The notes beneath the pieces were generated by a model, which was not told the origin of the DNA, did no database searches, and was given only the letters and a program-made list of their open reading frames with translations. DNA of 8,732 bases from Nitrospirota bacterium (lineage in GTDB: Bacteria > Nitrospirota_A > Leptospirillia > Leptospirillales > Leptospirillaceae): the NCBI GenBank assembly GCA_027415455.1, contig DAIBSV010000082.1, positions 1 through 8,732 of the forward strand, in the 5' to 3' direction. Below are positions 1 to 8,732 of the stretch, piece by piece (positions within the stretch are counted from its first letter, which is position 1; each line of letters begins with the position of its first letter). The translations under genes and the position numbers were made by a program.

Positions 1-13
1 ATCCACCCCAAAA

Positions 14-27
14 GTGACGGCCGTCAC
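14..27. promoter_or_regulatory. Perfect 14-bp palindrome, possible operator
   Basis: The sequence gtgacggccgtcac equals its own reverse complement, with two 7-bp arms and no spacer. It lies about 60 bp upstream of the -35 element at 86-91, in non-coding DNA just before an AT-rich stretch. Symmetry of this kind suits a dimeric DNA-binding regulator. I do not recognise the regulator, and the site could equally serve a gene lying to the left of the window. Confidence 0.35.
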
Positions 28-85
28 AGTACGGAATCAAACATTTCTTTTTATATCAATATATTAGTGCCAAATAATATTTTTA

Positions 86-114
86 TTGACCTCAGACAAG
101 TCTGATTCTATACT
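86..114 (+). promoter_or_regulatory. Sigma-70-like promoter for the lytic transglycosylase gene
   Basis: The -35 box TTGACC (86-91) and the -10 box TATACT (109-114) each match the consensus at five of six positions, and the spacer is exactly 17 bp. The DNA just upstream (about 45-85) is very AT-rich and could act as an UP element. Transcription would start near 121, giving a leader of about 200 nt before the gene at 322. The spacer contains the inverted repeat tcagac-aa-gtctga (92-105), a position where a bound repressor would block RNA polymerase. Confidence 0.65.
92..105. promoter_or_regulatory. Inverted repeat inside the promoter spacer, candidate operator
   Basis: Arms tcagac and gtctga (6 bp each) are separated by aa and fall wholly between the -35 and -10 boxes. 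Many repressors act by binding in this interval. The repeat is short, so chance remains possible, and no regulator gene is visible in the window. Confidence 0.35.
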
Positions 115-120
115 GAACCT

Positions 121-321
121 GTCAATCGTTCCTGCCATCGAATCAGTATCGAAACAAACTTTCGCGGGGCCATGCACCCCGCCGGAAGCGTCGGAGTCCG
201 GTCGGACTCACGGCTCGATGGAGGTTCGGACAGTTTTTTTCCACGGCGTCCGCATCATGACAGACGACAGAAACTGGCCGGCTCGGGAATGGATCAGCCA
301 TCCTCATCAGGAGGTTGCGCA
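121..321 (+). other. Long leader of the lytic transglycosylase mRNA with several potential hairpins
   Basis: If transcription starts near 121, about 200 nt precede the TTG start at 322. Three short stems can be drawn: gcgggg/ccccgc (164-169 with 177-182), gagtccg/cggactc (194-200 with 203-209), and cctc/gagg (302-305 with 311-314), the last covering the Shine-Dalgarno sequence. A run of seven T lies at 234-240, directly after a second copy of cggac (227-231). That copy could also pair with gtccg at 196-200, so mutually exclusive folds are possible. I could not match the leader to a known riboswitch class. The attenuator reading is inference. Confidence 0.3.
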
Positions 322-942
322 TTGAACTGGATGATTCATCAATCCGTGGCATGGTGCCTGAGTGCCCATCTTCTCTCTCCAACTGTCCCCTATTCGCACC
401 TCATCACGCAAATTTCCTGCAGCCATCATATCGATCCCGTTCTTGTGGCGGGAATCGTCGCGCAGGAATCGCGCTTCGACCCACGTAAAAGTCGCGTGGA
501 GGATCGCATTCACGATGTCTCGCTGGGTCTGATGCAGATAACAACACGAACCGCTCGCTGGATGGGGCTTCGCGGCTCGATCAAACAGCTCTATGAACCA
601 GCCGTCAACCTGACCTACGGAGTCCGGTACCTGGCCTGGCTGCTCCAGAAACATCCTTATGGAGCCGATGCCGTGGCCGCCTACAATGCCGGAAAAGCCA
701 GATGGCGCCATGGGGGATATGTCAACAGCCGAGGCTCGCACACCGTCGAACACTATGTGGTCCGGGTCGTCAGCTGGGCACGGCGCTTCCGGCTTCAGTC
801 CCAACGCGAGGAACGGGAAATGGTCGCCCTCGAAAAACGTCGGGGCAAAGGGACACTAGTGTCCCACGACAACCGGCTTCTGGCTTGGCTTGACAGGGCT
901 CCCGGCACCCTTTATCCGGATATTGGGCGATTGCCGAACTAG
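322..942 (+). CDS. Lytic transglycosylase, SLT (goose-lysozyme-like) domain
   Basis: This 206-residue protein has the transglycosylase SLT fold that cleaves the MurNAc-GlcNAc bond of peptidoglycan and leaves 1,6-anhydro ends. The family signature is complete: the catalytic glutamate in AQESRF (Glu49), SLGLMQI (67-73), NLTYGVRYL (96-104) and AAYNAG (119-124). The rest is a short basic C-terminal tail from about 155. TTG 322 is preferred because aggagg (309-314) lies 7 nt upstream. ATG 331 would be too far from that site, and the in-frame ATGs at 172 and 289 lack a convincing ribosome site. The N terminus is mildly hydrophobic but no clear signal peptide is visible, so export is inferred from function. 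The last 87 bp overlap the opposing gene that ends at 856. The fold assignment is firm; the start is less so. Confidence 0.88.
   Translation: MNWMIHQSVAWCLSAHLLSPTVPYSHLITQISCSHHIDPVLVAGIVAQESRFDPRKSRVEDRIHDVSLGLMQITTRTARWMGLRGSIKQLYEPAVNLTYGVRYLAWLLQKHPYGADAVAAYNAGKARWRHGGYVNSRGSHTVEHYVVRVVSWARRFRLQSQREEREMVALEKRRGKGTLVSHDNRLLAWLDRAPGTLYPDIGRLPN
850..865. repeat. Perfect 16-bp palindrome at the overlapping gene ends
   Basis: The sequence gggacactagtgtccc is fully self-complementary. It contains the stop codon of the minus-strand membrane protein (856-858) and codes within the transglycosylase tail on the plus strand. RNA from either strand could form a short hairpin here, but no T-run follows on either side, so a standard terminator is not supported. 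Confidence 0.5.
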
Positions 943-1236
943 GTGTCGGTTCCGGTAGTTGAAGTAATGTTCCGCATTGACGATGACATCGTCGGCCCTG
1001 CCTGCAAGCTTTTTGTGCTGCAGAGACTTGTACAGGAGTGTCACGCCAGCTAGGACCACAAGACCGCCGATGGTCAGAGCAATCGCCCCCCTGACCGGAT
1101 GGCGGATTCCAAGCCCGAGGGAGAGCGACACTCCTCCCAGCGCAATCACGATGGTCGACAGAAGAACGAGAACCAGAAGTGTCAAGGGACGACTCCTTTT
1201 GATCGGCGTGGCCTGGGACGGGGGATCCTCAGACAT
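856..1236 (-). CDS. Small two-helix inner-membrane protein, function unknown
   Basis: The 126-residue product has a short polar N terminus, a first hydrophobic helix at about 18-41, a second at about 48-69, and a basic cytosolic-looking C-terminal half including EHYFNYRNRHL. The start is ATG 1236, with the purine-rich ggaaggggga directly before it. The open frame continues upstream to 1476, but that extension has no ribosome site and covers the promoter region. I do not recognise a family. The arrangement of two helices plus a basic tail resembles generic DUF membrane proteins only. It converges on the transglycosylase gene and shares its last 87 bp with it. Confidence 0.72.
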   Translation of the reverse strand: MSEDPPSQATPIKRSRPLTLLVLVLLSTIVIALGGVSLSLGLGIRHPVRGAIALTIGGLVVLAGVTLLYKSLQHKKLAGRADDVIVNAEHYFNYRNRHLVRQSPNIRIKGAGSPVKPSQKPVVVGH

Positions 1237-1263
1237 TCCCCCTTCCGGATTGATACACGGCTT

Positions 1264-1292
1264 AGGATAGACCGAATTTTTCAAAAGGGCAA
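1264..1292 (-). promoter_or_regulatory. Probable promoter of the membrane-protein gene
   Basis: Read on the minus strand, TTGCCC (1292-1287) and TATCCT (1269-1264) are 17 bp apart. Each matches four of six consensus positions. The -10 box ends 27 bp before ATG 1236, leaving a short leader that contains the ribosome site. Confidence 0.45.
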
Positions 1293-1390
1293 CGTGTTTC
1301 CGGGCGCAGCTGGCTGTGCCGCCTCTCACACGGAACACTCTCCCTTGCCTTTGCAGTGCCCCCTTCCCGTTTTGCCGATTTTTCCGGACT

Positions 1391-1419
1391 TTTCCCGATA
1401 CATTATCCTGTGCTATCCT
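1391..1419 (+). promoter_or_regulatory. Possible extended -10 promoter for the DUF5069 gene
   Basis: TGCTATCCT (1411-1419) has the TGn motif of an extended -10 element, and TTTCCC (1391-1396) is a poor -35 box at 17 bp. It lies 72 bp upstream of ATG 1491. The two promoters of this divergent region (1237-1490) would be about 100 bp apart, back to back. The call rests on weak matches. Confidence 0.3.
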
Positions 1420-1490
1420 CGAAAAAACTTGTTCCTTTTCCTTGGAGAAGGGAACATCCTCTTCTGATAAAGCCACGCAAGGAGGGACCC

Positions 1491-1925
1491 ATGGACTTGA
1501 GAAAGACCTTTCCCAGAAGCCCGGTCGACAGGCTGCACGGCATCGACCATCTCAAGAGAATCATCGACAAGGCCCGGGCCCATAATGCCGGGACCCTCGG
1601 AGAATACACCTACAATTGCCCTCTCGACCAGGTCTTCCTGAAACACATCGGGATTTCCGCGGAGGACTTCGCTCGTCTCGTCCAGACTCATTCCTCGGAT
1701 GAAACCATTTATGCCGAACTCTGGAAGAGATTTCCCAAAGCCCTTTCTCCCGAGGGGGTCGATGCCTTTAACGTCGCCTATGAATCGGCCGGACCCGACA
1801 CTCCCGAAAAAAAGGCCTGGTTCAACTCCGTCCTCAAAGCCCTTGACCCTCTTCGGACAGACATCACCACCTGGGTCCGGCTCCTTGATCTTGAGGAAAA
1901 GCGCCCTGTCCCCCACCTTAAGTAA
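1491..1925 (+). CDS. DUF5069 family protein
   Basis: This 144-residue soluble protein carries the N-terminal hallmarks I associate with DUF5069: a Leu-Arg-Lys-Thr-Phe-Pro-Arg-Ser-Pro opening (3-11), LHGIDHLKRIIDKARA, and the GTLGEYTYNCPLD block around 38-50. No signal peptide or membrane segment is visible, so it is probably cytoplasmic. The biochemical role of the family is not known to me. The start is clear: aaggagg (1479-1485) lies 5 nt before ATG 1491. An in-frame ATG at 1356 would give a longer N terminus but lacks such a site. The two M16 genes follow on the same strand after 83 bp; whether they share its transcript is open. Confidence 0.85.
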   Translation: MDLRKTFPRSPVDRLHGIDHLKRIIDKARAHNAGTLGEYTYNCPLDQVFLKHIGISAEDFARLVQTHSSDETIYAELWKRFPKALSPEGVDAFNVAYESAGPDTPEKKAWFNSVLKALDPLRTDITTWVRLLDLEEKRPVPHLK

Positions 1926-1945
1926 GCGGGAGGACTCTTTTTCGT

Positions 1946-1970
1946 CCCCCGACAATCCGGTCGGCCGGGG
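1946..1970 (+). terminator. Weak hairpin after the DUF5069 gene
   Basis: A C-rich/G-rich stem can form around cgac-aatccg-gtcg, flanked by cccc and gggg with a small bulge, about 20 nt after the stop codon. The T-run (about 1938-1942) comes before the hairpin rather than after it. Intrinsic termination is therefore doubtful, and read-through into the M16 genes is likely. Confidence 0.25.
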
Positions 1971-2008
1971 TCCATTCACTCTGCATCCTAACTCAAGGGA
2001 GCCTGCCC

Positions 2009-3433
2009 ATGACTCATCGTTTCCCGCGTCAAGTGCTACTTGGTTCTCTCCTCGTTTTCTGGCTCGCCCTCCCGATCACCCTCATTTCATCCCAGAACGC
2101 CTCTGCCGATACCGCCAATCCTTCGGGGTCTTCGCTCAAACTAAGTCTTCTCCCCCAGGTCCACCACTTCAAAAACGGGTTGACTCTCGTCACCGTCAAT
2201 GATCCCTACAGCCCGACACTGACCTTCCAGATCTGGTACAGGGTCGGGTCCAGGAACGAACACAGGGGGCGGACCGGAATCTCTCACTTCAACGAACACA
2301 TGATGTTTACTGGGACAAAAAAGTTTCCCCACGGGAAGCTCGACACCCTCATCAATGGCGTAGGGGGTCAGCTCAATGCCTTCACCGACTATGACTTCAC
2401 AGCCTATTTCGAGAATGTGGCCCCGGACAAGATCGACCTTCCGCTGGCCATCGAGTCGGACCGAATGACCCATCTTCTTCTCTCCCCGGATCAGGTGGAA
2501 CGGGAACGCAACATCGTCCTCGAAGAACGCCGGAACGACTATGACGACCCGACCCAGAAGCTTGTCGAAAAAGTCTATTCCACGGCCTACGCGGTCCACC
2601 CCTACCACAATCCCGTCATCGGGTGGGAAAAGGATATCCAGCACACCACCCGCAAGGATATCCTGAACTACTACCGGGCCCATTACATGCCGAACAATGC
2701 GACGATTGTCGTCGTCGGACCGGTCGACGATCGGACTCTTGTCAAAAAGGTCCGCACCTATTTCGGAGGCATTCCCCGAGGACACCTCGCCAAGTCCCGG
2801 ATCCCCGCCGAACCAGCCCAGCACCACCTCCGTATGACCGTCGTCAGGAAACCCGCCATGCTCCCCATCACCATGATGGCCTTTCACGCTCCCAATTTCA
2901 GGAGCCGGGATGCCATGGCGCTCGTGGTTCTCGCCCAGGTTCTCTCGGGTGGGCGCACCTCTCTTCTGTATCAGGACATGATCTATCACCATCCTGTGGC
3001 GGTGGATGCCGAGGGCTCCTATGACCCGTTGACCCACGACCCGGGGCTTTTCTATTTTTACGCCCAGGGACTGCCGAAGACGTCTCCCCCGCTTCTCAGG
3101 AAAAGGCTTGACGCCGTCATCCGGAAAGTCAGGCAGACACGGGTCCCCGCGGACCTTCTCGAATCGGCCAAGAAGCAAATCCTGACCCAGTTCGTCATGA
3201 ACCAGGAGTCGGCCTTTGGAATGGGGATGCTTCTCGGGATGATGTCCGCCGACAGGGTTCCCATGACCTATCTCACGGATTATGTCCGGAAGATTCAGAG
3301 CGTGACTGCCGACGACCTTCTTCGTGTCGCCCGGAAGTATCTCCGGAGCTCAAACGAGACGGTCGGGTACCTGTTTCCGACCGGACCCGTTCGGCATCCC
3401 TCCTTTTCTCGCCCTGGCCGGATCGTCCGATAG
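2009..3433 (+). CDS. Exported M16 family zinc metallopeptidase, catalytic member
   Basis: The 474-residue protein is an insulinase/pitrilysin (M16) peptidase of the short, two-domain type. The inverted zinc motif is intact: HFNEH at 93-97 (His93, Glu96, His97), and the third ligand lies in VLEERR, most likely Glu173, 76 residues after His97 as in the family. The neighbouring GISHFNEHMMFTGT and the GGQLNAFTDYDFTAYF segment are typical. The C-terminal M16 domain covers about 215-400. A signal peptide is visible (hydrophobic 9-27, ASA before a probable cut after residue 33), so it acts in the periplasm, probably degrading unfolded or signal peptides. The start is supported by aaggga (1995-2000), 8 nt before ATG. 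The next gene encodes a paralogue without zinc ligands, which suggests a heteromeric pair like the mitochondrial processing peptidase subunits. Confidence 0.93.
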   Translation: MTHRFPRQVLLGSLLVFWLALPITLISSQNASADTANPSGSSLKLSLLPQVHHFKNGLTLVTVNDPYSPTLTFQIWYRVGSRNEHRGRTGISHFNEHMMFTGTKKFPHGKLDTLINGVGGQLNAFTDYDFTAYFENVAPDKIDLPLAIESDRMTHLLLSPDQVERERNIVLEERRNDYDDPTQKLVEKVYSTAYAVHPYHNPVIGWEKDIQHTTRKDILNYYRAHYMPNNATIVVVGPVDDRTLVKKVRTYFGGIPRGHLAKSRIPAEPAQHHLRMTVVRKPAMLPITMMAFHAPNFRSRDAMALVVLAQVLSGGRTSLLYQDMIYHHPVAVDAEGSYDPLTHDPGLFYFYAQGLPKTSPPLLRKRLDAVIRKVRQTRVPADLLESAKKQILTQFVMNQESAFGMGMLLGMMSADRVPMTYLTDYVRKIQSVTADDLLRVARKYLRSSNETVGYLFPTGPVRHPSFSRPGRIVR

Positions 3434-3437
3434 GATT

Positions 3438-3458
3438 TGAACGGACCCCTGAACGGAC
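3438..3458 (+). repeat. Short tandem repeat, 12-bp period
   Basis: The 9-mer tgaacggac occurs at 3438-3446 and again at 3450-3458, just after the stop of the first M16 gene and before the hairpin at 3467. It could be a regulatory half-site pair or a small duplication; function is unknown. Confidence 0.4.
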
Positions 3459-3466
3459 ATTGACCC

Positions 3467-3490
3467 GGGAATCCCACGGGTGGGATTCCC
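3467..3490 (+). other. Strong hairpin between the two M16 genes
   Basis: Arms of 11 nt, starting gggaatccca on the left and ending tgggattccc on the right, are perfect inverse complements separated by two bases. The realistic fold is 10 bp with a 4-nt loop. It ends 6 nt before the ribosome site aggaga (3497-3502) of the second gene and no T-run follows, so it is not a standard terminator. Likely roles are RNA processing or stabilisation, or adjusting translation of the lipoprotein gene relative to the catalytic one. The structure is seen; the role is inferred. Confidence 0.6.
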
Positions 3491-3507
3491 TACGACAGGA
3501 GAACCAC

Positions 3508-4980
3508 ATGGCCCCACTGAAATCGCTTCCCACCACCAGAGTGCTCGCGGGACTTCTTTTTCCATCCCTCATTTTTCTCTCCGCGTGCGCCCATGCCCCC
3601 GCATCCGCTCCTTCCGCCGGAACAGAAAATAAAAAGCCCTCCCAGGCCTTAGAATCCGTTTCGCAGTATCCCGTTCCTGCGATGCACACGTCCATTTATG
3701 CCACCACGCTTGCCAATGGACTCACGGTCTATGTGGTCCCCCGTCCCGACCTTCCCCTGATTTCCTTCCGCATCGGGATTCGGGCCGGATCCGCCGAAGA
3801 CCCGGCCGGAAAAGGCGGGACTGCGGCTCTTGCGGCGAGCCTGTTGGGGAAAGGCACCAGGAATCATGACGCTCCCGCCATCTTCCGGATCGTCGACGGG
3901 ACAGGCGGCTCCCTGGAAGCCTCCGCAGGGCGCGATTTCACGACCGTCTCGGGAGACAGCCTCTCCACGGAGACCCCCACGCTTCTCTCCCTCGCCTCGG
4001 AAATGGTTGCAAGCCCGACATTCCCTCAACGGGAGTTCGACGTAAAGAAAGCGAGCACCATCGCTTCCCTGATCGATGCCGAGAGCCACCCGGGGCCGAA
4101 GGGAACCGACCTTTTCTACCGCCTGCTCTTCGGCCATGGGCCTTATGGCCATCCTCCCGCGGGAACATCCGGATCCCTCAAGGGGATTACCCGCAGCGAC
4201 CTGGCGGAATTCGTGGCGGCCCGCTATCGTCCCGACCGCTCCGTTCTGATTCTGGCCGGGAACATTTCCCCCAGGGAAGGACTGGATTTGGCCCGGCGCT
4301 ATTTCGGAAGTTGGGCCCCTCAACCCGTCTCTTCTCCCGCCCCGCACACCCGGGTGGCGATGACCTCTCCCAAAACAGGGATCTTTCTCGTCGACAAACC
4401 GGAACTGCGGCAATCCACTGTTTTCTACGGAACCCCCGGCATTGCCCGTCAGGATCCCTCGTTCTATAACGCCCTCGTCTTCAATATGGTTCTCGGAGCC
4501 ACCAACACCTCCACCCTGAACCGGGTCATCCGGCAAAAGATGGGGCTGGTCTACTACATCCACACGGGGCTCGACGCCGAACGGCATCCCGGTCCCTTTC
4601 TCGTCAACTTTCAGACCCATGCTCCAAATACCAAGAAAGTCCTCACGGCGATGGACAAGGTTCTCGCCGAGGCAGCCAATTCCCCCCCCTCTCCGGAAAA
4701 GGTGAAGGCGGTCAAGGACCAGCTGGTGGGAGGCTTCCCATTCCTGATGAACACCACCTCAAAGCTTGCCTCCCTTCTGCTCGTCGTCTGGAGCGACAAC
4801 CTTGGGCTGACCTATTTCACCGATTATCCGGACCAGGTGAGCCGGGTCACTCCCGAATCGGCTCTGGCCGCCGGTCAGCACCTTCTTCGCGACAAGCCCT
4901 TCGTGACCGTCATTGTCGGACCACGCAAAACCCTGGAAAAGGCGGGAATCAAGGGTCAGTCTCCCCCTGCCTCATTCTGA
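3508..4980 (+). CDS. M16 family lipoprotein, non-catalytic partner subunit
   Basis: The 490-residue product is an M16 homologue that has lost the active site. Where the family has HxxEH it reads GTAALAASLLGKGT (about 105-118), keeping the helix and the GT turn but none of the ligands. The second half is well preserved, with RQKMGLVYYIHTGLDA, the usual R...GL-Y region of the C-terminal M16 domain. The N terminus is a lipoprotein signal: hydrophobic 12-24, then LSAC with Cys27; Ala at +2 favours the outer membrane. ATG 3508 follows aggaga (3497-3502) by 5 nt; a TTG at 3460 would place the lipobox too deep and lacks a ribosome site. It probably pairs with the catalytic M16 enzyme 74 bp upstream, aiding substrate binding at the outer membrane. 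Zinc-free partners of this kind are well known in bacterial M16 gene pairs. Confidence 0.9.
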   Translation: MAPLKSLPTTRVLAGLLFPSLIFLSACAHAPASAPSAGTENKKPSQALESVSQYPVPAMHTSIYATTLANGLTVYVVPRPDLPLISFRIGIRAGSAEDPAGKGGTAALAASLLGKGTRNHDAPAIFRIVDGTGGSLEASAGRDFTTVSGDSLSTETPTLLSLASEMVASPTFPQREFDVKKASTIASLIDAESHPGPKGTDLFYRLLFGHGPYGHPPAGTSGSLKGITRSDLAEFVAARYRPDRSVLILAGNISPREGLDLARRYFGSWAPQPVSSPAPHTRVAMTSPKTGIFLVDKPELRQSTVFYGTPGIARQDPSFYNALVFNMVLGATNTSTLNRVIRQKMGLVYYIHTGLDAERHPGPFLVNFQTHAPNTKKVLTAMDKVLAEAANSPPSPEKVKAVKDQLVGGFPFLMNTTSKLASLLLVVWSDNLGLTYFTDYPDQVSRVTPESALAAGQHLLRDKPFVTVIVGPRKTLEKAGIKGQSPPASF

Positions 4981-4987
4981 TCCAACC

Positions 4988-5015
4988 GGGGAGGGTCCTT
5001 TTGCGGGCCCTCCCC
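4988..5015 (+). terminator. Terminator-like hairpin after the M16 pair
   Basis: Starting 8 nt after the stop codon, ggggagggtcc pairs with gggccctcccc (11 bp with one G-T) around the loop ttttgc. The stem is very stable but is followed by tctcatca rather than a T-run. It fits a weak-tract or stability hairpin at the end of the M16 transcript. Confidence 0.55.
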
Positions 5016-5040
5016 TCTCATCACAGCCCCATACCCACAC

Positions 5041-5058
5041 AAAAACCCCGGGTGGGGT
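5041..5058 (-). terminator. Intrinsic terminator for the minus-strand genes
   Basis: Read on the minus strand, acccc-accc-ggggt is followed directly by a run of T (5045-5041). The stem is short (5 bp, 6-7 with flanking weak pairs) but GC-rich. It lies about 120 nt past the stop at 5180 and would end transcription before it meets the M16 unit coming from the other side. Confidence 0.45.
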
Positions 5059-5086
5059 CATCAAGACATTTATACCCAAAAACATG

Positions 5087-5119
5087 GCGAGAAGGGGGTC
5101 TCCCAGGAGGGATTCTCGC
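5087..5119. repeat. Inverted repeat in the convergent intergenic region
   Basis: gcgagaa (5087-5093) and ttctcgc (5113-5119) are exact inverse complements with 19 nt between them, partly able to pair as tccc/ggga. The interval 4981-5179 holds no convincing gene: only the two terminator-like hairpins and this repeat. Confidence 0.4.
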
Positions 5120-5179
5120 GCCTATGGGCGAACTCGGGCGGGTTTCTGGATGGAAACGGCAAGGAGCGGTGCAGGAAGT

Positions 5180-5635
5180 CTAATTTGAGGAAAAGGAGTA
5201 GAGATAGCGCCAGGACACGGGGGTTTCGGGGTCTTCGACATTGAAGAGGACAGGGATGGTATGGCCTTTCTTGTCCTGCAGTTCAAAGACAACAAGATGA
5301 TAGGCGACAAAGCGGACTTGGGAACGATGGGTGAGAGCGAGAGAACGCCCCTGCGCAACCATGGTGGGCAGAAGCGTTGAAAAATCCTTTATTCCCATCG
5401 CTGTGTTGACGGTATCGGACTCGAAGCTCCCGACGCCGGTCGATTTTTCCGAAGAGGATGGCGATGAGGAGGCGGAAGGGGGCGGAACGGAACGGACACC
5501 AGCCTTCATGAGAATCTTCATGTGGCGAAGCTGTCCCTGCAGGTTTCCGATCTGAATCTGTTCATAGGTCACGATGCCCGACGAGACAAGGAACAAAAAA
5601 AATGTTCCTCCGATCACCAGCCTTCGTTCATTCAC
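5180..5635 (-). CDS. Membrane-anchored periplasmic protein, unknown function
   Basis: The 151-residue product has one N-terminal hydrophobic helix (about 6-23), a short amphipathic stretch that could be a brief coiled coil (25-45), a Pro/Ser-rich linker (about 51-66), and a small C-terminal domain with beta-strand character ending in WRYLYSFSSN. The topology suggests an inner-membrane anchor with the C-terminal domain in the periplasm. I do not recognise the family. GTG 5635 is chosen because ggaagggg (5651-5644) lies 7 nt before it; an in-frame TTG at 5641 sits too close to that site. It starts 33 bp after the bS22-like gene and probably shares its transcript. Confidence 0.7.
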   Translation of the reverse strand: MNERRLVIGGTFFLFLVSSGIVTYEQIQIGNLQGQLRHMKILMKAGVRSVPPPSASSSPSSSEKSTGVGSFESDTVNTAMGIKDFSTLLPTMVAQGRSLALTHRSQVRFVAYHLVVFELQDKKGHTIPVLFNVEDPETPVSWRYLYSFSSN

Positions 5636-5668
5636 GACCAATCCCCTTCCAGCCAGCTCTGAGCGAAT

Positions 5669-5758
5669 TTACTTCTTCTTGTGACGGGACTGTCTTCGAA
5701 GCTTCTTGTATTTGTGTTTCCGGATCTTCTTGCGACGCTTTTTGATAACACTCGACAT
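5669..5758 (-). CDS. bS22-like mini protein of the small ribosomal subunit (AURKAIP1/COX24 domain)
   Basis: This gene codes for only 29 residues, more than half of them Lys or Arg: it opens MSSVIKKRRKKIRKHK and ends in RRQSRHKKK. That pattern matches the AURKAIP1/COX24 family, whose mitochondrial member is mS38 and whose actinobacterial member is ribosomal protein bS22, a tiny peptide bound to rRNA at the decoding side of the 30S subunit. ATG 5758 is chosen because the family starts at this methionine; gggaga lies about 10 nt upstream, a little far. The same frame is open up to ATG 5869, but the extra residues do not resemble the family. Genes this short are often missed by automatic annotation. 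It lies between ftsB and the hypothetical gene at 5635. Confidence 0.85.
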   Translation of the reverse strand: MSSVIKKRRKKIRKHKYKKLRRQSRHKKK

Positions 5759-5880
5759 GCGCTCGTTTTCTCCCAGGCCCCCCCGGTCGTACCGGAAGGA
5801 GTCCTCTAACGCCTTGACCGTTTGATTGTCCCGACAAATGCCTTCGCGACACCGAATTGGAATGAACACAACAAGTGATG

Positions 5881-5910
5881 ATCCTAACGCACTTTCATCT
5901 TAAAAATCAA
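5881..5910 (-). promoter_or_regulatory. Possible promoter for the bS22-like gene
   Basis: Minus-strand TTGATT (5910-5905) and TAGGAT (5886-5881) are 18 bp apart and match four of six consensus positions each. The site begins 3 bp after the ftsB stop and lies about 120 bp before ATG 5758. No terminator is visible after ftsB, so this would add to read-through from the enolase operon. Confidence 0.35.
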
Positions 5911-5912
5911 CG

Positions 5913-6242
5913 TTATTCCCGGCTCCCCTCCCTGGGAAGAACGAGAATTTCGCCCGGGCGGAGGCGATGCTCCCGTTCACGGGCCTGACGTTCCAGGGCG
6001 AAGGGATCCGAACGCAGGGAATTGACGCGGGCCTCGATAACACGGACGCGTCCCTGGATCCGCCCGAGAGCCTGGCCTGCCTCCCGCTCCTTGAAGACAT
6101 AAGAAACGAGAGGAAGAACACCCGTTGTGGCTGACAGGAGGGCTCCCCCCGTCCAGATCCAAAGCCCTGCCCCCACGATCCAGTAAAACCAGAGCTGGCC
6201 ATTTCCCTTTTCCTGAATTCCTTTTCGAGGGGAGGCTCCCAT
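5913..6242 (-). CDS. ftsB: FtsB/DivIC-type septum formation initiator
   Basis: The 109-residue single-pass membrane protein has a short cytoplasmic N terminus, a long hydrophobic segment (about 18-50), a coiled-coil-prone stretch (about 51-76) and the family's closing signature: RSDPFALERQARE followed by LRPGEILVLPRE. FtsB/DivIC links FtsL and FtsQ and helps activate septal peptidoglycan synthesis. It begins 9 nt after the enolase stop, and its ribosome site (agagg) overlaps that stop region, so translation is probably coupled. An eno-ftsB order is common in bacteria, which supports the call. Whether it is the functional FtsB or a DivIC paralogue cannot be settled from one gene. Confidence 0.85.
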   Translation of the reverse strand: MGASPRKGIQEKGNGQLWFYWIVGAGLWIWTGGALLSATTGVLPLVSYVFKEREAGQALGRIQGRVRVIEARVNSLRSDPFALERQAREREHRLRPGEILVLPREGSRE

Positions 6243-6251
6243 GGGCGGCCT

Positions 6252-8028
<1,777 letters not shown>

Positions 8029-8067
8029 GGTCTCTCCGGCGGTGAAGGAATCGGCCTCTGGAATGGA

Positions 8068-8394
8068 TCAACCGGTCGAACCCGGTCCCATTTTGAAGGA
8101 AACAAGGCGTTTTGACCAGTGCCATTTACCGGTCGCCGACCACCCCCCCTCCCCGACAAAGCCGACCCCTTTGGCATAATATTCGTAAAGGTACTGGGTC
8201 GAACGCCGGCTGATCAGATCGTAGGTCAGTTTTCTCCGGACAACCCAGCAGACGAAGGTCCCGGCCGGAAGGGTGATCCGGACCTTGCCCCAGACCCGGT
8301 CGTGGATCGTGTTCTGCCCATCCTCCCCATCCCAGCCGTCCCCTTTTTTGAAGGGAAGATGCGCCCGGACAAGCGGGGGGTGGTAATGAAAAAC
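8068..8394 (-). CDS. TapB/DUF3108-like protein, 5' end missing at a junction
   Basis: A minus-strand frame open from 8415 to the stop at 8068-8070 reads as a real protein for about 108 codons but contains no ATG, GTG or TTG near its beginning. Typical content includes HYHPPLVRAHLPF, WGKVRITLPAGTFVCWVV and YLYEYYAKGVGFVGEGGW. The tyrosine-rich segment ending in GVG followed by V or L, after a GxxxxxAGTF strand, recalls TapB and DUF3108 periplasmic proteins. No signal peptide remains. Upstream of about 8390 the frame runs into the antisense of gatB and stops at 8416. It is therefore a 3' fragment of a longer gene, cut at the same place as gatB. It precedes the cytochrome gene by 39 bp and was presumably the upstream member of that operon. 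No symbol can be given. Confidence 0.6.
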   Translation of the reverse strand, partial: VFHYHPPLVRAHLPFKKGDGWDGEDGQNTIHDRVWGKVRITLPAGTFVCWVVRRKLTYDLISRRSTQYLYEYYAKGVGFVGEGGWSATGKWHWSKRLVSFKMGPGSTG

Positions 8395-8400
8395 AGCCGG
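8388..8400. other. Probable breakpoint: rearrangement or assembly misjoin
   Basis: To the right, plus-strand GatB homology starts abruptly at about 8394. To the left, minus-strand TapB-like homology stops at about the same base. Neither gene has a start codon, ribosome site or promoter here, and there is no intergenic DNA between them. The gatB frame has a stop at 8349-8351, and no other upstream frame continues the protein. No inserted element or target duplication is visible at the join. Confidence 0.65.
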
Positions 8401-8732
8401 ATCTTCCCTCCCTCGTCATCGACCCTGTTCTGGTCGAAGAGGAGAGGAGATCCCTTCCCGAGCTTCCCGAGAAAAAGGTCGAACGCTTCTGTGCGGAGTT
8501 CGGACTCTCCCGAGCCGATGCGGAGATCCTCGTGGCCGAGGAGGCCCTCTCCCGGTACTTCGAAGAGGGGCTCTCCCTTTTCCGGTCCGCCTCGCCCGCC
8601 GGGGATGCCTTGAGGAAGGCGCGGGAACGCTGGACCTCCTTTGTCCTCTCGGAGGTTCTCCGGGAGTTCAACCGTCAGGGGGAAGGGGTGCTGGAGGGAG
8701 AAACGGCCGTGGTCCATACAGTCGCCCTCCTC
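8394..8732 (+). CDS. gatB: GatB C-terminal part (Asp/Glu-tRNA amidotransferase subunit B), both ends missing
   Basis: The 113 codons read DLPSLVIDPVLVEEERRSLP, then LPEKKVERFCAEFGLSRADAEIL, then the start of the YqeY-like tail (RERWTSFVLSEVLREFNRQG). This matches the portion of GatB that normally follows the YRYFPEPDLPPL motif; here only QPDLPSL remains. GatB works with GatA and GatC to amidate Glu-tRNA(Gln) or Asp-tRNA(Asn), transferring ammonia from GatA. The kinase-like N-terminal two thirds (roughly 280-290 residues) are absent, no start codon is present, and the frame runs off the right edge of the window. As it stands the fragment could not be functional. An intact gatB is expected elsewhere if the join is an assembly artefact. 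Confidence 0.8.

Follow-up and report, generated by a model that had tools for sequence, protein, structure and literature searches.

Near the right-hand end of the window, the 8,732 nucleotides of Nitrospirota DNA analyzed here, two divergent genes are both broken in mid-protein. The question raised by this locus is whether the break exists in the bacterium's genome or arose while its DNA was being copied and assembled.

Two gene fragments meet at a four-base junction

The sequence-only reading had described a plus-strand GatB piece and a minus-strand TapB/DUF3108-like piece that are cut at the same point. This was confirmed to within a few bases by tblastn with the intact proteins of the window's closest relative, contig JAKADN010000007.1 (L001), and by blastn against that contig. 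The two fragments abut at window 8395-8398, each without its 5′ part, and there is no gap between them. The features of the right-hand part of the window, and the segment to which they belong, are as follows:

1-8398, no strand assigned: segment collinear with L001 18031-9631 (minus strand) at 98.3% identity, in the normal arrangement (blastn)
6252-7532, minus strand: enolase (eno), intact (Pfam, related loci)
7525-8028, minus strand: multihaem c-type cytochrome with four CxxCH motifs in its translation, intact (translation, Pfam, related loci)
8071-8397, minus strand: DUF3108_like/TapB-type fragment, residues 105-213 of 213 (the last 109), with the N-terminal 104 missing (tblastn, Pfam)
8394-8732, plus strand: piece of gatB encoding residues 271-383 of 484, inverted with respect to the remainder of the locus and reaching the end of the window (tblastn, blastn)
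8395-8398, no strand assigned: junction, 4-bp AGCC common to both parent sites (blastn overlap and letter-by-letter comparison)

The blastn comparison with L001 showed a change of template at 8395-8398, with AGCC falling in both alignments. Its parent sites are L001 8672-8675 on the plus strand and L001 9634-9631 on the minus strand. Up to the point of divergence, the minus strand of L001 reads ...AATGAAAAACAGCC, and the plus strand at the gatB parent site reads AGCCGGATCTTCC...; the window across the join reads ...AATGAAAAACAGCCGGATCTTCC. The parent points lie about 955 bp apart in L001, on opposite strands of one conserved gene cluster, and the join is 338 bases short of the window's end. 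At the present base composition, the calculated probability that a random join shares at least 4 bases is about 0.017. Set against this expectation, the 4-bp overlap is a mild signal, and an overlap by chance is possible.

Beyond the join, all 338 bases of window 8395-8732 were identical to the opposite strand of L001, at 8672-9009, and the gatB fragment therefore showed no decay. GatB had been read as beginning with QPDLPSLV at about 8394. The fragment does start in mid-protein, at residue 271 of 484, but the Q itself arose through the join, and the intact gene has E at that place (...YFPEPDLPSLV). GatB sequence was absent from the plus-strand frame before 8394, and the minus-strand frame soon meets a stop codon once it has crossed into gatB. 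A local frameshift in GatB upstream of 8394 was rejected as an explanation, since the sequence to the left of 8395 corresponds to the opposite strand of the DUF3108 gene. By itself, the 113-aa GatB fragment matched no Pfam family at E ≤ 0.001, while intact L001 GatB carries GatB_N and GatB_Yqey. The minus-strand fragment was assigned to Pfam DUF3108_like (PF21347) at 34.8 bits, against a cut-off of 27.

An inverted repeat of 12 nt, 92% complementary, flanks the join (window 8352-8363 with 8398-8409, 34 nt apart). It is 1 of 37 inverted-repeat pairs within 833 bases and was set aside as probably due to chance. Folding of the DNA around the L001 breakpoint (9605-9665, minus strand) placed a stem there, with an energy no better than that of shuffles (z of -0.65; 52 of 200 shuffles folded equally well). 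A DNA hairpin at this breakpoint was therefore rejected as the cause of the strand switch.

Gene order in related loci

Searching genome contigs with the window's cytochrome yielded 12 related loci, all titled as Nitrospirae metagenome-assembled genomes. Over window 4500-8398, L001 differed by only 6 mismatches, and it is therefore a fair stand-in for the unrearranged locus. In L001, gatA, gatB, the DUF3108 gene, the cytochrome gene and eno are all intact and co-directional. The gatB frame stops at 9315 and the DUF3108 gene (9320-9961 as the intact copy) follows directly, from 9317 or 9320, in an operon-like manner.

The order gatA-gatB-DUF3108-cytochrome-eno was complete on one strand in 10 of the 12 loci (L001-L004 and L007-L012). 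The window has the same genes at its right end, in pieces 98-100% identical to L001. In the 10 loci, however, gatB matches residues 1-482 or 1-484 and shares the direction of eno, whereas the window has only a middle piece that points in the opposite direction. Of the other two, L005 has only GatB residues 415-484, placed and oriented as in the 10, at the point where its contig runs out; the L006 sequence starts 105 bases ahead of the cytochrome gene and does not extend to gatB. Thus in 11 of the 12 loci gatB directly precedes the DUF3108 gene and shares its strand, and the arrangement in the window is not conserved. The truncated genes had also prompted the caution that the cytochrome-eno operon might not lie next to gatB. 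This concern did not hold up, since their co-directional adjacency in 11 loci indicates that they are true neighbors.

The junction itself was sought in three ways. A 23-base query with up to 3 mismatches found it in none of the 12 related draft genomes, and an exact 27-base query had no matches in viral_contigs. The plus-strand frame that spans the junction (window 8352-8732), used as a protein query, gave 89 candidates and none at E ≤ 0.001, in a search whose length limits exclude full-length GatB. Since the window's own proteins were missing from these candidates as well, the result speaks only weakly against a recurrence.

The cytochrome adjoins eno in all 12 loci, which were found with this cytochrome, and sits between the DUF3108 gene and eno. 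It is small, and its similarity to NapC/NirT and to MtrC-like families is weak, falling short of the Pfam cut-off in both cases. A protein identical to the full-length L001 DUF3108-like protein represents a cluster with 6 members, which occur on 32 contigs of up to 257,505 bases; the cluster was built at 90% identity, and its members may differ or be incomplete. A DUF3108 relative at 81% identity is named as coming from Leptospirillum Group IV, which makes the host Leptospirillum-like. In L003 (also L015), gatB (7857-9308) contains one in-frame TAA at about 8301-8303. This stop is likely a sequence error because the title of the contig gives a coverage of only 2.4.

Two further differences from the related loci were seen within the window, in a pair of peptidase-like genes, putatively of the M16 type by sequence motif. 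The second of these genes (3460-4980, plus strand) contains a sharp-edged tract at about 4000-4400. Window 4000-4300 was 99-100% identical to L003, and 4300-4478, an interval covering the end of the tract, was 92% identical; elsewhere in window 3050-4950, L003 was only 68-86% identical. Against L001, the tract was 78-80% identical and the window right beside it 98-100%. Judged by these identities, it resembles either a stretch of gene conversion from another species or a second mosaic join. Around the border of the two genes, window 3350-3650 was 94.4% identical to L001, compared to at least 99% in the flanking intervals.

gatB, glnS, and asnS in relatives

A single gatB match was found in each of the four relative genomes that were searched. 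No glnS exceeded the curated cut-off in any of 8 relatives (best 83 bits against 425.8, restricted to the first 125-135 positions), and no asnS did so either (best 100.6 against 342.6). The matches below the cut-offs are as would be expected of glutamyl-tRNA synthetase for glnS, and of aspartyl- or lysyl-tRNA synthetase for asnS. The same searches gave matches over the cut-off in control genomes, 4 of 14 for glnS and 7 of 14 for asnS. These absences rest on drafts of unstated completeness, and all 8 relatives agree. Since both synthetases fell below the cut-off throughout, GatCAB is probably needed for Gln-tRNA and Asn-tRNA, and with a single gatB, breaking that gene would probably be lethal.

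Origin of the junction

We consider it very probable that the join is an artefact, in which a DNA molecule or read that was an inverted template-switch chimera entered the sequence near its end. In such an event, the locus gatB-DUF3108 gene-cytochrome-eno, on a single strand, would have been undergoing in vitro copying. A free 3′ end in AGCC (GGCT from the other side) would then have met the opposite-sense strand of this locus, about 955 bp away, and re-annealed there. Extension of the re-annealed end would yield eno, the cytochrome gene and the C-terminal half of the DUF3108 gene, followed by a fold-back that enters gatB in mid-gene on the other strand. We infer that this happened in vitro, during whole-genome amplification or library preparation, and not in a living cell; other in vitro copying steps might have the same effect. 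The 338 bases beyond the join are of a length that one sequenced fragment could cover.

Inverted chimeras of this kind have been described for multiple displacement amplification (MDA). In the study of one E. coli cell, 406 of 475 reported chimeras were inverted, 337 of these 406 joined segments under 10 kb apart, and 3′ ends primed at 2-21 complementary bases in more than 70% of the junctions (PMC1855051). The window resembles the chimeras reported there. Its two parts lie on opposite strands of one locus (window 1-8398 on the L001 minus strand, 8395-8732 on the plus strand), they are about 955 bp apart in L001 and thus within 10 kb, their complementary junction sequence of 4 nt (AGCC) falls within 2-21 nt, and the junction is absent from the independent genomes compared. 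It differs from the set in that source in being known from one assembled sequence, and its 4-nt overlap is at the short end. In a larger MDA set, the reported distances range from 0 to more than 5,000 nt and most overlaps are 5-8 nt long (PMC4595205); the 4 bp of the window is slightly shorter. Amplified Illumina libraries are described as containing inverted chimeras too, with wrong-orientation pairs that peak close to 0 bp apart (PMC4060946), a peak that 955 bp suits less well. These two points count against a chimera. A literature search for inversion misassemblies in metagenomes returned no paper that matched all five of its terms.

The earlier proposal had been an inversion or deletion breakpoint or, more likely, a chimeric assembly join. 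The last 338 bases are indeed inverted relative to 11 of the 12 loci, and the chimeric character of the join stands, but its parts come from a single locus and not from unrelated regions. The "assembly" part of the proposal fares less well. A misjoin of two correct contig ends during assembly or scaffolding, with no chimeric molecule behind it, would agree with the non-round length of the window and with a join so close to its end, which may resemble a contig end. Assemblers, however, need a k-mer or overlap far longer than 4 bases, and only 4 bases are common to both sides; the run of N that would mark a scaffold gap is also absent. The short overlap thus argues for a template-switched molecule or read over an assembler misjoin, and we regard a pure assembly error as highly unlikely.

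A genuine inversion in place, about 955 bp long (L001 8676-9630) and present in the strain or in a subpopulation, would break gatB and the DUF3108 gene together. Its right-hand junction would look exactly like that of the window, with 338 bases visible beyond it, and a single junction does not by itself separate a rare genuine rearrangement from an in vitro chimera. In bacterial populations, short inverted repeats are reported to flank rare inversions, which would yield the same kind of junction, but the cut-off that this Salmonella study deduced for true inversions is a microhomology of at least 12 bp (PMC3411829), compared to the 4 bp of inverted sequence in common here. L001 8500-9800 contains 114 inverted repeats, and none of the longest 25 ties the two breakpoints together; the gatB breakpoint is touched by one pair (8671-8689 with 9442-9460) and the other breakpoint by a different one (9614-9629 with 8516-8531). 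The undecayed state of the gatB fragment and the probable lethality of losing gatB also speak against an inversion, and we judge it unlikely. A narrower version is very unlikely: a true 955-bp inversion through gatB in a subpopulation whose cells are dying or have a second tRNA-dependent amidotransferase encoded elsewhere in the genome.

Consequences for annotation

A template-switch chimera would leave little that is unusual about this locus: the only odd feature is the orientation of the last 338 bp of the window, and the join is most likely an ordinary artefact and not a real feature. In the bacterium itself, the two genes that look broken here are probably whole. The finding is one of quality control, and the bases from 8395 onward should be masked or cut. 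Left in place, they would lead to an annotation of gatB and the DUF3108 gene as broken and divergent, although they are intact and co-directional in the closest relative, and a false view would result of how the organism of the window makes Gln-tRNA and Asn-tRNA.
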